Under the pieces are notes generated by a model. The model saw nothing but the letters and a program-made list of their open reading frames with translations. It was not told where the DNA came from and searched no databases. Positions 6,864 to 11,029 of a stretch of 51,818 nt of DNA are shown here, piece after piece. The stretch is taken from the NCBI GenBank assembly GCA_021815805.1, contig JAKAZQ010000023.1, positions 1 through 51,818 on the forward strand, read 5' to 3'. Each line of letters begins with the position of its first letter. The stretch's first letter is position 1. Both the position numbers and the translations under genes were made by a program. This DNA is from Pseudomonadota bacterium (lineage in GTDB: Bacteria; Pseudomonadota; Gammaproteobacteria; Burkholderiales; Burkholderiaceae_C).

Positions 6864-7322
6864 ATGCCATCTTCCGTGCCCCGCCGTCGCTTTTGCGTTC
6901 CCGCCCGCGCGCTGTTGAGCGCCGCCCTCGCGTTTGGCCTGCCCGCGCTCGCGCAGGCCGCCAGTTGCCCGGCCGGGCAGGGCGATTACAGCTCCGCGCA
7001 GGCGGCGCAAGGCAAGACGCTGTTCATGGCCAATTGCGCCGCGTGCCACAGCGCCGACCTGAAGGGCAATTCGGGGCCGGCACTGGCCGGCGCGGATTTC
7101 GATTCCTATCTTCACTTCAGCAAGATCTCCGCGGCCCAGCTGCTCGCGTTCATGACCGCGCAGATGCCGTACCAGGCGCCTGGAAGTCTCAAGCCCGCCG
7201 ACTACCCCAAGATCTTTGCGTACATCCTGCAGGTCAATGGCTACAAGGCCGGCGACAAGGAACTCACGCCGGCCGACGTGGCCTGTGTCTCCATGCTCCC
7301 GTACCCGGGGGACAAGCAGTAG
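6864..7322 (+). CDS. Periplasmic class I c-type cytochrome, partner of the PQQ dehydrogenase
   Basis: 152 residues. A signal peptide (about residues 1-32, cleavage after ALAQA) exports it to the periplasm. One heme c site CAACH is at 58-62, and Met101 in AQMPYQAPG is the likely sixth ligand, matching the common pattern of small cytochromes that accept electrons from quinoproteins. A weak AGGA lies 8 bases before the ATG. The gene is 180 bases upstream of the PQQ dehydrogenase on the same strand, so it most likely takes electrons from that enzyme to the terminal oxidase chain. Two extra cysteines (35 and near the C-terminus) could form a disulfide. Confidence 0.88.
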   Translation: MPSSVPRRRFCVPARALLSAALAFGLPALAQAASCPAGQGDYSSAQAAQGKTLFMANCAACHSADLKGNSGPALAGADFDSYLHFSKISAAQLLAFMTAQMPYQAPGSLKPADYPKIFAYILQVNGYKAGDKELTPADVACVSMLPYPGDKQ

Positions 7323-7502
7323 GCGCGCACGCGGCGCGGGCCGAAAGGGGCCGACCCGCGACGCAGGTTCGACAGCAGGCAGCCCCGCATACGCGCATAC
7401 GTAGTCGCAGCACCGCCGACAGAAGCAGTCGCATTCACCGCCGCGCGCGGGCCGCAGCGCATTCCGGCTGCCGGTTCGCCACGTCAGAGCCAAGAGGGAA
7501 CC

Positions 7503-9209
7503 ATGACAACACACACTGAGATGCACCACCGGGTACGCCGAAGCTTCGGCAAGGCGGCGATGGCCGCAGCCGTGCTGTTCGGCAGCGTGCTGGCCGTCAG
7601 CGCGCATGCCGTCGGCGTGAAGGCCGAGGGCTCCGAGACCGGGGGCCAGAAGGCGCAGATGCAGAACAACATCATGGACGACGTGGGCGTGACCCAGTCG
7701 ATGCTGAACAACGCCGCGAACGACAGCGCCAACTGGGTGGTCAACGGGCGCAACTACGACAACACGCGCTTTTCGCCGCTGACCCAGATCGACACCCGCA
7801 ACGTGAAGGACCTGAAGCCGGTGGCCATCGTGCAGACCGGCTACACGGCCAGCTTCGAGACCACTCCGCTGGTGGTCAACGGCGTGATGTACGCGACCAC
7901 GCCGATGGTCAACAAGAAGCAGGCGCTGATGGCGCTCAACGCCGCCACCGGCCAGACCCTGTGGACCTACGTGTACACCAACGGCTTCAACCAGATCTGC
8001 TGCGGTCCGGTGAATCGCGGAGCCGCCGCCGGCGACGGCATGGTGTATTTCCTGAGCATCGACAACCACCTGGTGGCGGTCAACGCGCGCACCGGCAAGA
8101 AGGCGTGGGCGACCGTGGTCGCGAACTCGCAGGCCGGCTACTCGGAGACCATGGCGCCGACCTTCTATCACAACATGGTGATCATCGGCAGCGCCGGTGG
8201 GGAATGGCCGGTGGCCGGCTTTGTCGCCGCCTACGATGCCCGTAACGGCAAGCAGATCTGGCGCTGGCACAGCACGTCGGATCACTCGACCTGGTCGGGA
8301 GATTCCTGGAAATACGGCGGCGGCACGGTGTGGACCACTCCGGCTATCGACACCAAGCGCGGGTTGCTGATCTTCTCCACCGGCAACCCGAACCCGGACC
8401 TGAACGGAGCGATGCGCCTGGGCGACAACAAGTACACCGATTCCATCGTCGCGCTGGACGTGAAGACCGGCAAGTTCCGCTGGGCCTACCAGGAAGTGCC
8501 GCATGACGTGTGGGATCTGGACGCCGTCAGCCCGGTGATCCTGTTCGACACCATGGATCACGGCAAGATGGTCCCGGCGGCCGGCGAGGCCGGCAAGACG
8601 GCCTTCTACTACGTGGTGAACCGCGAAACCGGCAAGCTGATCCGCATGTCGGAGCCCTTCGACGAGCAGCAAAACCTGTTCGCGCAACCGACCACGCACG
8701 GCACGCAGATGCTGCCGGGCGCCAACGGCGGCTCGGAATGGTCGCCGCCGGCCTACTCGCCGCTGACCAAGTACGTGTACGTGCTGGGCATGAACCAGCT
8801 CATGACCTACACCAAGGAGGACAACTCGCCGCCGGTGCCGGGCATGATCCGTCTCGGCAGCACCTTCAAGAACGTCAAGGGCGGCATCCAGGATGGAACC
8901 TTCTCGGCCATCGACGTGAACACTGGCAAGATCGCGTGGAACAAGACCCTGCCGCAGCCGATGATGGGTGGCGCGCTGGTGACCGCCGGCAACCTGGCCT
9001 TCACCGGCGAGGGCAATGGCTGGTTCGATGCCTTCGACGCCAAGACCGGCGACCGGCTGTGGCGCTTCAACCTGGGTGCTGGCGTGAACGCACCGCCGAT
9101 CACCTACACCGTGCATGGACGGCAGTACGTGGCCGTGGCCGCGGGGGGCAACTTCCAGATGTCCTACCCGTACGGCGACGCCATCGCGATCTTCACCGTG
9201 GAAAAATGA
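7503..9209 (+). CDS. PQQ-dependent alcohol/methanol-type dehydrogenase with lanthanide signature
   Basis: 568 residues, a soluble periplasmic quinoprotein of the methanol/ethanol dehydrogenase family. A signal peptide ends near AVSAHA (residues 31-36). The adjacent cysteine pair that stacks on PQQ is Cys166-Cys167 (QICCGPV). Likely metal ligands are Glu234 (GGEW), Asn295 (GNPNPD) and the catalytic base Asp338 in PHDVWDLDAVS; two residues further is Asp340, the extra carboxylate that distinguishes lanthanide-dependent enzymes (XoxF, PedH) from calcium enzymes, which have Ala or Ser there. Tryptophan-docking repeats such as ALNAATGQTLW and AFDAKTGDRLW are visible. No heme domain is fused. AGAGGGA ends 3 bases before the ATG. 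A cytochrome c gene precedes it; PQQ synthesis genes are not in the window. Substrate could be an alcohol, or thiosulfate as reported for a XoxF of Advenella. Confidence 0.92.
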   Translation: MTTHTEMHHRVRRSFGKAAMAAAVLFGSVLAVSAHAVGVKAEGSETGGQKAQMQNNIMDDVGVTQSMLNNAANDSANWVVNGRNYDNTRFSPLTQIDTRNVKDLKPVAIVQTGYTASFETTPLVVNGVMYATTPMVNKKQALMALNAATGQTLWTYVYTNGFNQICCGPVNRGAAAGDGMVYFLSIDNHLVAVNARTGKKAWATVVANSQAGYSETMAPTFYHNMVIIGSAGGEWPVAGFVAAYDARNGKQIWRWHSTSDHSTWSGDSWKYGGGTVWTTPAIDTKRGLLIFSTGNPNPDLNGAMRLGDNKYTDSIVALDVKTGKFRWAYQEVPHDVWDLDAVSPVILFDTMDHGKMVPAAGEAGKTAFYYVVNRETGKLIRMSEPFDEQQNLFAQPTTHGTQMLPGANGGSEWSPPAYSPLTKYVYVLGMNQLMTYTKEDNSPPVPGMIRLGSTFKNVKGGIQDGTFSAIDVNTGKIAWNKTLPQPMMGGALVTAGNLAFTGEGNGWFDAFDAKTGDRLWRFNLGAGVNAPPITYTVHGRQYVAVAAGGNFQMSYPYGDAIAIFTVEK

Positions 9210-9288: not shown

Positions 9289-9634
9289 CTTGGGTCCGGC
9301 CATATCCCGCAGAGCTCCCGCGCATGTCCCGTCCAGGTCGGGGCCCCGGGCGTAAAGCCCGGCGAAAATTGCGCTTCCTCTGGGTATTCGCGAGGAACGG
9401 GCGGGTTCATTCGACAAAGTCCCGGACGATCTGCGGCGCGCGCAAGCGCCCGCCGCGCTCGACCCCGAGCCCGCACCTTAGAATTCGGGCGCTTGGTCAT
9501 CGCGGCTCGAACGCCCACGCCGTGAATCGCGCATGGCGATGTTTCAAACAAGCATGAAAAGCGCGCTGCAACACTTTGATCTTGCCGCTTTTTTTTGTAT
9601 TTGATACGCTTTGCTGCAAATTCTTCAAGCCATC
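9289..9634. other. Intergenic region with likely promoter of the endopeptidase gene
   Basis: About 345 bases with no coding frame of note. Near its 3' end the sequence becomes A/T-rich (TTGATCTTGCCGC, then eight T, then TATTTGATACG), which could hold a sigma-70 promoter for the downstream gene, for example TTGATC and TTTGAT spaced 18 bases. This is a by-eye call. Confidence 0.35.
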
Positions 9635-11029
9635 ATGCGCACCCCTCGATCCCGCCTCCGGCACGGCACCGGCATGCTGCCCATCCTGCGCACCCTGGCG
9701 CTTGCCTGGCTGGTCGGGCTCGTCCTGTCGCCGGCGCGCGCCGCAGAGCCGGCGGCAGCCACGGGCAGTGCCAGTGGCCCCCGGGCCTCGCTACCCGGGC
9801 CCGGCGCGCAGCACGCAGAGGCACGCGTCGCGGCGCGGCACGCTGTCGTACGTCACCCCAAGCGTCGGCGCGAGGTCGTACGGCACCACGTCGTGCGGCA
9901 CCGCATCGTCGCGCACCACGTCGTCAGGCACCACGTCGTGCGGCACCACGTCGTGCGGCACCACGTCGTGCGGCACCACGTCGTCGCGCGCCACGTCGTC
10001 AGGCGCCACGTCGTCGCGCACCACGTCGCCCGTCATGTGGTGCGGCACCACGCCGTCGCCCACCATGTCGTTGTCCACCACGCCGAGCAGCGGCAGCCTG
10101 TGGCAGCGCGCCACGCGGTACGGCTACTTCACCGTGGCGCGTCCCCTCGTGTGCCCGTGGTGCAACACGCGGCCGAGCGCCGTGCCATGCCGCGTCGCGT
10201 CACGGCGCTGCGCCTGGGCACCGATCCGGTGAGCCTGGCGTCCGGTTCCGCGCTGGTCATCGATGCGCGCACGCACCAGGTGCTGCTGAGCAAGGACGCC
10301 ACCGACGTGCGCCCGATCGCCTCGCTGACAAAGCTCATGACGGCGGCTGTGGTGCTGGATGCGCACCAGCCGATGGACCAGCGCATCGAGATCACCGATG
10401 CCGACATCGACACCCTGAAATGGAGCAGTTCGCGCCTGCGCCCCGGCATGGTGTTCACGCGCCAGGAACTGCTCAAGCTTGCGCTGATGTCCTCCGAGAA
10501 CCGCGCCGCGCACGCGCTGGCGCGCAACTATCCGGGCGGCCTTGCGGCCTGTGTAGCGGCCATGAACCGCAAGGCCGCGGGTCTGGGCATGCTGCACACC
10601 CGTTACGTGGAGCCGACCGGGTTGTCGCCGCAGAACGAGTCCACCGCCAGCGACCTGGCCAAGCTGGTGGGTGCGGTCTACGCCTATCCGTTGATTCGCG
10701 AATATTCGACCCACCCGCAAAGCATGGTCACGGCCGGGCGGCGCGAACTCGAGTTCCGCAACACCGACCACCTGATCTTCAATCGCGGCTGGGACATCCT
10801 GCTGCAGAAGACCGGATTCATCAACGAGGCGGGGCACTGCCTGGTGCTGAACACCGTGGTGCAGGGGCGCCGCGTCATCGTGGTGCTGCTCGACGCGTGG
10901 GGGCGCTACGCCCACTTCGTGGATGCCGAGCGGATCCGCGACTGGATGGAAACCTCCGGCCGCACGCTGCTGACCCGCGTCGACCCGGTGCGGGCGGCCG
11001 ACGCGAGCGCCGGCGCGGTCGACGAATAA
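9635..11029 (+). CDS. pbpG: PBP7-type D-alanyl-D-alanine endopeptidase with His-rich linker
   Basis: 464 residues. A signal peptide (hydrophobic LPILRTLALAWLVGLVLSPA) exports it. The catalytic penicillin-binding domain starts near residue 195 and has all three hallmarks: Ser230-x-x-Lys233 (SLTK), Ser287-Glu-Asn289 (SEN) and Lys392-Thr-Gly394 (KTG). It is therefore a low-molecular-mass peptidase cleaving peptide cross-links in the cell wall. Between export signal and enzyme domain is an extraordinary linker (81-149) of near-perfect pentapeptides HHVVR/RHVVA, described separately. ATG 9635 is chosen; a TTG eight codons earlier and an ATG thirteen codons later are alternatives. It converges with the IclR regulator gene. 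Confidence 0.88.
   Translation: MRTPRSRLRHGTGMLPILRTLALAWLVGLVLSPARAAEPAAATGSASGPRASLPGPGAQHAEARVAARHAVVRHPKRRREVVRHHVVRHRIVAHHVVRHHVVRHHVVRHHVVRHHVVARHVVRRHVVAHHVARHVVRHHAVAHHVVVHHAEQRQPVAARHAVRLLHRGASPRVPVVQHAAERRAMPRRVTALRLGTDPVSLASGSALVIDARTHQVLLSKDATDVRPIASLTKLMTAAVVLDAHQPMDQRIEITDADIDTLKWSSSRLRPGMVFTRQELLKLALMSSENRAAHALARNYPGGLAACVAAMNRKAAGLGMLHTRYVEPTGLSPQNESTASDLAKLVGAVYAYPLIREYSTHPQSMVTAGRRELEFRNTDHLIFNRGWDILLQKTGFINEAGHCLVLNTVVQGRRVIVVLLDAWGRYAHFVDAERIRDWMETSGRTLLTRVDPVRAADASAGAVDE
9875..10081 (+). repeat. 15-bp tandem repeat encoding His-Val-Arg pentapeptides
   Basis: Within the endopeptidase gene a 15-base unit (CACCACGTCGTGCGG and variants) is repeated about thirteen times, encoding HHVVR with changes to RHVVA, HHVVA or HHAVA. 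The middle copies are identical at the DNA level, which points to recent slippage or unequal crossing-over. The product segment would be strongly positively charged at acid pH and could bind metal ions or anionic cell-wall polymers. Confidence 0.85.

Follow-up and report, generated by a model that had tools for sequence, protein, structure and literature searches.

The window, the whole 51,818-nucleotide stretch of DNA analysed here, carries a gene for a one-heme cytochrome c (P0002) and, starting 180 bases past it on the same + strand, a gene for a PQQ-dependent dehydrogenase (P0001). From its sequence, P0001 appears to be a periplasmic PQQ enzyme, probably one that uses a rare-earth metal, and P0002 is its likely electron acceptor. 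Our preferred reading, which we hold with reasonable though not strong confidence, is that P0001 is a lanthanide-type dehydrogenase that oxidises an alcohol or a similar compound and would pass electrons to its own cytochrome c, P0002. The genes, the motif, the clade, the pairing and the association with PQQ genes are direct observations. The identity of the metal, the direction of electron flow and an organic substrate (an alcohol, a sugar or an aldehyde) are parts of this reading that we infer. The features are as follows, where clade A is the group of sequences that includes P0001 and clade B is its sister group.

6864 to 7322, + strand: one-heme c-type cytochrome P0002, 152 aa (PF00034 and PF13442 over cut-off)
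7035 to 7049, + strand: heme motif CAACH, residues 58–62 of P0002 (from the sequence)
7503 to 9209, + strand: PQQ-dependent dehydrogenase P0001, 568 aa, with lanthanide-type signature (Pfam, solved relatives, alignment, tree)
7998 to 8003, + strand: Cys166–Cys167 pair (invariant in an eight-sequence alignment)
8202 to 8204, + strand: Glu234, predicted metal ligand, with Gly233 before it (alignment; PedH and XoxF have Gly here, the three calcium references Ala or Asp)
8385 to 8387, + strand: Asn295, predicted metal ligand (alignment)
8514 to 8516, + strand: Asp338, predicted to act as catalytic base and metal ligand (alignment)
8520 to 8522, + strand: Asp340, the additional Asp typical of lanthanide-type enzymes (alignment; 14 of 14 in clade A)
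8595 to 8597, + strand: Lys365, replacing the Arg of XoxF, MxaF, PedH and ExaA at the PQQ site (Lys in 14 of 14 in clade A and 14 of 14 in clade B)
8736 to 8738, + strand: Glu412, replacing the Asn of XoxF, MxaF, PedH and ExaA at the PQQ site (clade A: Glu in 12 and Asp in 2 of 14; clade B: Glu in 13 and Asn in 1 of 14)

The open reading frames match exactly the coordinates of the earlier note on this DNA, which had placed a cytochrome and a quinoprotein at 6864–9209, and Pfam agrees with both identifications. PF00034 scores 41.6 bits on P0002 (cut-off 21.3) and PF01011 scores 288 bits on P0001 (cut-off 26.7). The third-position G+C content is 0.85 for the P0002 gene and 0.91 for the P0001 gene, so both look like real genes for a window of 71% G+C. 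P0002 starts with a Sec-type signal that, by eye, ends near AQA, and CAACH is its one heme motif. In 13 of the 14 clade A members, the gene directly upstream of the dehydrogenase encodes a P0002 homologue (the window and 12 of 13 loci; it is absent near L038), which bears out the pairing with a single-heme cytochrome described earlier.

The best solved relatives of P0001 by sequence are PedH (6zcv, 263 bits) and XoxF (6dam, 262.6 bits). Our alignment comprises P0001, 79 relatives and five solved references; the relatives were drawn by similarity to P0001, and the counts that follow are not population frequencies. At the columns of Asp338 and Asp340, PedH and XoxF have D-x-D, MxaF (4tqo) has D-x-A and ADH IIB (1kv9) has D-x-T. 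The Asp338-Leu-Asp340 stretch (WDLD), assigned earlier to the metal site, aligns with the D-x-D of PedH and XoxF, and in the comparison with XoxF, PedH, MxaF and ExaA Asp340 falls in the metal-site D-x-D column. Glu234, Asn295, Cys166-167 and Gly233 likewise match PedH and XoxF rather than the calcium enzymes; we take Cys166-Cys167 to be the adjacent-cysteine pair that lies near PQQ in alcohol dehydrogenases. The two lanthanide references combine D-x-D with a Gly preceding the acidic ligand; in the three calcium references that position is Ala, Asp and Ala, together with D-x-A, D-x-S or D-x-T.

The same columns divide the 80 sequences (P0001 counted, the five solved references left out). The residue at +2 is Asp in 65, Thr in 14 and Gly in one, so an Asp here is no rarity in this set. 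The state Gly-Glu, Asn, Asp-x-Asp occurs in 51 of the 80, Ala-Glu, Asn, Asp-x-Thr in 12 with two more that have Asp for the Glu, and Gly-Asp, Asn, Asp-x-Asp in six; the catalytic Asp is lost in seven, one sequence has Asp-x-Gly and one is E. coli Gcd. Where both 338 and 340 are Asp (58 sequences), Gly precedes the acidic ligand in 57, the exception being E. coli Gcd; in all 14 D-x-T sequences, Ala precedes it. This split of the references and of the 80-sequence set puts P0001 in the predicted lanthanide-type state at two positions, D-x-D and Gly before Glu. Glu, Asn, Asp, x, Asp are kept in all 14 clade A members, which argues that the D-x-D of P0001 is not due to chance. Judged by these residues, lanthanide is the likely metal of P0001.

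At the positions that we take to contact PQQ, P0001 keeps all residues except for two, with Lys in place of Arg and Glu in place of Asn. The D-x-D motif alone is no proof of a lanthanide, since E. coli Gcd, which is 25% identical to P0001, also carries it. The rule in the earlier note that calcium enzymes have Ala or Ser at this position therefore needs widening: both residues occur, but so does Thr, and Gcd has Asp. This membrane glucose dehydrogenase is described, in a passage of PMC11996626, with Ca, Mg, Zn or Sr. P0001 could similarly be metal-promiscuous or use Ca or Mg, with Asp340 as an extra ligand that brings no lanthanide dependence, and clades A and B do have the Lys and Glu of Gcd at two PQQ-pocket positions. 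Gcd, however, lacks three features that P0001 has in common with PedH and XoxF, namely Gly-Glu, Asn and the first residue of the Cys pair, and we consider this alternative unlikely, although it deserves to be taken seriously. The Lys/Glu pair is not unique to Gcd and clades A and B: one further, distant relative (L074) has both residues and another (L016) has the Glu together with Arg.

An AlphaFold model of P0001 made from eight sequences has a mean pLDDT of 58.4. In the regions of the metal site (residues 232–237, 295–312 and 332–351) the pLDDT is under 50, and the model is therefore silent on ligand geometry. A Foldseek search of this weak model against the PDB returns PedH first and XoxF second; the prediction confirms the fold only, not the metal site.

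We placed P0001 in its family with a FastTree tree rooted on Gcd that contains one XoxF and one PedH reference. Clade A comprises 14 sequences with support of 1.00, namely nine species of the window's genus, including the window itself, and five outside loci (Acidocella facilis, Lichenicoccus roseus, an Acetobacteraceae MAG, a “Proteobacteria” MAG and a Marinobacter MAG). Clade B, also of 14 sequences, is the sister of clade A (support 0.97) and has D-x-D in 14 of 14. The solved references fall in a separate group (0.97), and clade A does not group with XoxF/MxaF, with PedH/ExaA or with the D-x-T quinohemoproteins; a third clade, which lacks the catalytic Asp, joins A and B with a support of only 0.27. 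PF01011 and the mostly conserved PQQ contacts make P0001 a member of the PQQ-dependent alcohol dehydrogenase superfamily, and the NCBIfam model of the methanol/ethanol family (TIGR03075) gives it 444 bits, below the curated cut-off of 480.05. The earlier description “XoxF/PedH-type” thus stands for the metal site (D-x-D, Gly before Glu) but not as a family label, because the tree splits P0001 from both and TIGR03075 stays under its cut-off. We set aside the identification of P0001 as a XoxF, given its separation from XoxF/MxaF in a tree with one XoxF reference, and as a PedH, given its separate clade in a tree with one PedH reference. In the Acidocella facilis member (L040), the dehydrogenase is missing 12 residues near its start, between two TTP repeats; the gap may be a genuine deletion or may stem from the assembly.

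The notion of a XoxF-type methanol dehydrogenase in a methylotroph draws on the same D-x-D and on the rank of XoxF among the top solved relatives, but it conflicts with the position of P0001 apart from XoxF/MxaF. We recognised no mxa or xox genes beside the pair, and a search of the source genome (a 3.1-Mb draft, 94% complete, in 71 contigs) gave no match to the formaldehyde gene fae, which disfavours methylotrophy via the fae route and agrees with the earlier remark that the pair lies outside a methylotrophy cluster. A methanol dehydrogenase of this type is, in our judgement, very unlikely.

Among known systems, PedH/ExaF (PQQ-ADH type 2b, a lanthanide ethanol dehydrogenase) resembles P0001 in Gly-Glu, Asn, Asp-x-Asp, Cys-Cys and the propeller fold, and is its best solved match in both sequence and structure. 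It differs from P0001 in belonging to another clade, with about 31% identity in the fold alignment, and in having Arg and Asn where P0001 has Lys365 and Glu412. XoxF has the same metal signature as P0001, and both have a c-type cytochrome nearby, which in XoxF systems is XoxG. Unlike XoxF, which is also in another clade, P0001 has Thr for the second Trp of “WGW” and an extra residue after GNPxP. Clade B members are 42–49% identical to P0001, with the same signature and the same Lys in 14 of 14 and the same Glu in 13 of 14. Their hosts are Paraburkholderia, Caballeronia, Ideonella, Alloyangia and others, in which they are annotated only as PQQ-dependent or PQQ-binding proteins. We found no P0002 homologue adjacent upstream of clade B dehydrogenases; their cytochrome is of another kind and lies downstream, annotated so in three of the four plasmid loci viewed, and the same three have an ankyrin-repeat gene.

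Modelled by analogy on PedH and XoxF, the preferred reading of P0001 as a lanthanide-type dehydrogenase suggests the following mechanism. The P0002 and P0001 genes would form one functional unit, and P0001 would be exported to the periplasm, where it would hold PQQ and one metal ion via Glu234, Asn295, Asp338 and Asp340. The metal ion, most likely a lanthanide, would polarise PQQ; Asp338 would take a proton from an alcohol-type substrate while a hydride goes to PQQ. Two electrons would then leave PQQ singly to P0002 and from there enter the respiratory chain. The PQQ itself would be made by the pqqBCDE genes of the cell and may also be recaptured via a PqqU-like receptor.

The source genome has pqqE over cut-off, and pqqB, C, D and E lie side by side on its contig C8, in line with the PQQ synthesis genes that the earlier note had thought worth looking for. 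We surveyed 28 genomes of the genus, counting as orthologues clade A sequences at least 70% identical and as other PQQ dehydrogenases matches at E <= 1e-60. Nine of the 28 have a clade A orthologue, seven have only other PQQ dehydrogenases and 12 have none. pqqE is over cut-off in seven of the nine carriers, in 0 of the seven genomes with other dehydrogenases and in 0 of the 12 without any (7/9 carriers against 0/19 non-carriers, Fisher p 3e-5, relatedness not corrected for). It is also found in all five carriers outside the genus and thus in 12 of the 14 genomes of clade A overall. The two carriers without an intact pqqE are G471, in which the match has internal stops, and G492, a genome 86% complete with no match. 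In G470, the genes for the cytochrome, the dehydrogenase, pqqB, pqqC, pqqD and pqqE follow each other in this order on one strand.

Of the 16 genus genomes that encode a PQQ dehydrogenase, 12, among them the source genome, have a PqqU-like receptor (E <= 1e-100), against 0 of the 12 without such an enzyme; these matches score 480 to 545 bits, and none reaches the curated cut-off of 1200. The receptor gene is on the same stretch as the orthologue in G471 and G492, and in G469, which has pqqE, it is in pieces. The distribution of pqqE and PqqU-like genes fits a strategy of making or importing PQQ, as described for PqqU bacteria in a passage of PMC12124388. Seven genus species have a PQQ dehydrogenase but no clade A orthologue and no pqqE over cut-off, and five of them have a PqqU-like receptor, as expected for PQQ scavengers. 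In G471, G492 and G469 (L096, L097 and L095), a second PQQ dehydrogenase, the PqqU-like TonB receptor and a second TonB receptor are all found no more than about 12 kb from the orthologue, a cluster that is possibly a PQQ or metal uptake island.

With P0001 as the query, only three matches were found in the source genome, all of them with Gly-Glu, Asn and D-x-D. The paralogue L043 on contig C53 scores 535.6 bits with TIGR03075 and has PedH as its nearest solved protein. The gene behind it has a cytochrome domain at its end, and its first part, which gave no family match, resembles a XoxJ-type binding protein by eye only. L044, on contig C23, is a second D-x-D PQQ dehydrogenase, truncated by the contig end and located beside genes that look like ExbB/ExbD by eye.

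The pair is followed at 9611–11029 by a gene that by eye encodes a D-Ala-D-Ala carboxypeptidase, with an IclR neighbour, and both are conserved at each of the 26 further loci inspected in the genus. In four of these 26 loci, or five of 27 with the window, the dehydrogenase lies ahead of them; at one locus (L132) the upstream sequence is too short to judge, but its genome has no orthologue. In G469, G470, G471 and G492 the pair is located elsewhere. The cytochrome–dehydrogenase pair thus acts like a cassette, subject to gain, loss or relocation. By eye, the genes upstream in the window (Rieske oxygenase, hydroxyacid reductase, Fe-alcohol dehydrogenase) were not recognised next to the pair in L035 and L036, the loci nearest to it, and the gene contexts of L037–L041 differ, so that no substrate can be read from the neighbourhood.

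An inorganic substrate had also been suggested, after an Advenella enzyme that is called a XoxF oxidising thiosulfate in part of PMC6548844. A passage of PMC9774590 describes it as a thiol dehydrotransferase with two activities, one converting thiosulfate to tetrathionate and the other acting on tetrathionate and glutathione. For P0001 to be such an enzyme of inorganic sulfur (thiosulfate or tetrathionate) would suit the presence of soxB in the source genome, as well as SoxY/SoxZ close to pqq genes in G470, two DsrE-like genes next to the pair in G469, of which one passes its cut-off (similar genes by eye in G471 and G492), and TauE beside the pair in G472. However, soxB is found in 27 of the 28 genus species and the enzyme in nine, so soxB does not track the enzyme, and the sulfur-type neighbours vary between carriers, with none beside the pair in the window. 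We have set the thiosulfate reading aside because soxB occurs in 27/28 species regardless of the enzyme; SoxY/SoxZ, the DsrE-like genes and TauE keep a sulfur link barely open, and an inorganic-sulfur enzyme seems to us highly improbable.

More tentatively, clades A and B may constitute a further, biochemically unexplored lanthanide family that joins a PedH/XoxF-like metal site with a Gcd-like Lys/Glu PQQ pocket, with sugars, polyols or other non-volatile compounds as possible substrates; clade A would be a movable cytochrome–dehydrogenase cassette whose presence in the genus coincides with a capacity for PQQ synthesis. Our literature searches returned nothing tied to clade A, which is no proof that it is undescribed, and clade A or B may already bear a type number among the PQQ-ADH types of Keltjens and co-workers. 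The introduction of PMC11996626 gives XoxF and PQQ-ADH type 2b as the only enzymes with biochemically confirmed lanthanide dependence. Sequence surveys predict such dependence far more widely, and many D-x-D families have already been predicted in print. P0001 and P0002 are a good candidate for asking if the D-x-D motif is by itself a predictor of lanthanide enzymes beyond XoxF and type 2b, because the pair is compact, the presumed acceptor is next door and the metal signature can be tested residue by residue. What they add is the tight cytochrome pairing, the mixed PQQ pocket and the link with PQQ supply, and the genus offers a natural comparison between species that make PQQ and species that seemingly only import it.

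Two further observations concern relatives and neighbours of the enzyme. Seven relatives (L023, L050, L057, L067, L069, L070 and L072) have Gly for the catalytic Asp (HDRWGYD in the two viewed) and have lost the metal-binding Glu; they retain Cys-Cys and the +2 Asp, and from their sequences are perhaps enzymes without the usual metal chemistry. In two species, a (5-formylfuran-3-yl)methyl phosphate synthase-like gene lies next to SoxY/SoxZ and near PQQ-related genes (L098:2663-4340 and L112:14147-15726).
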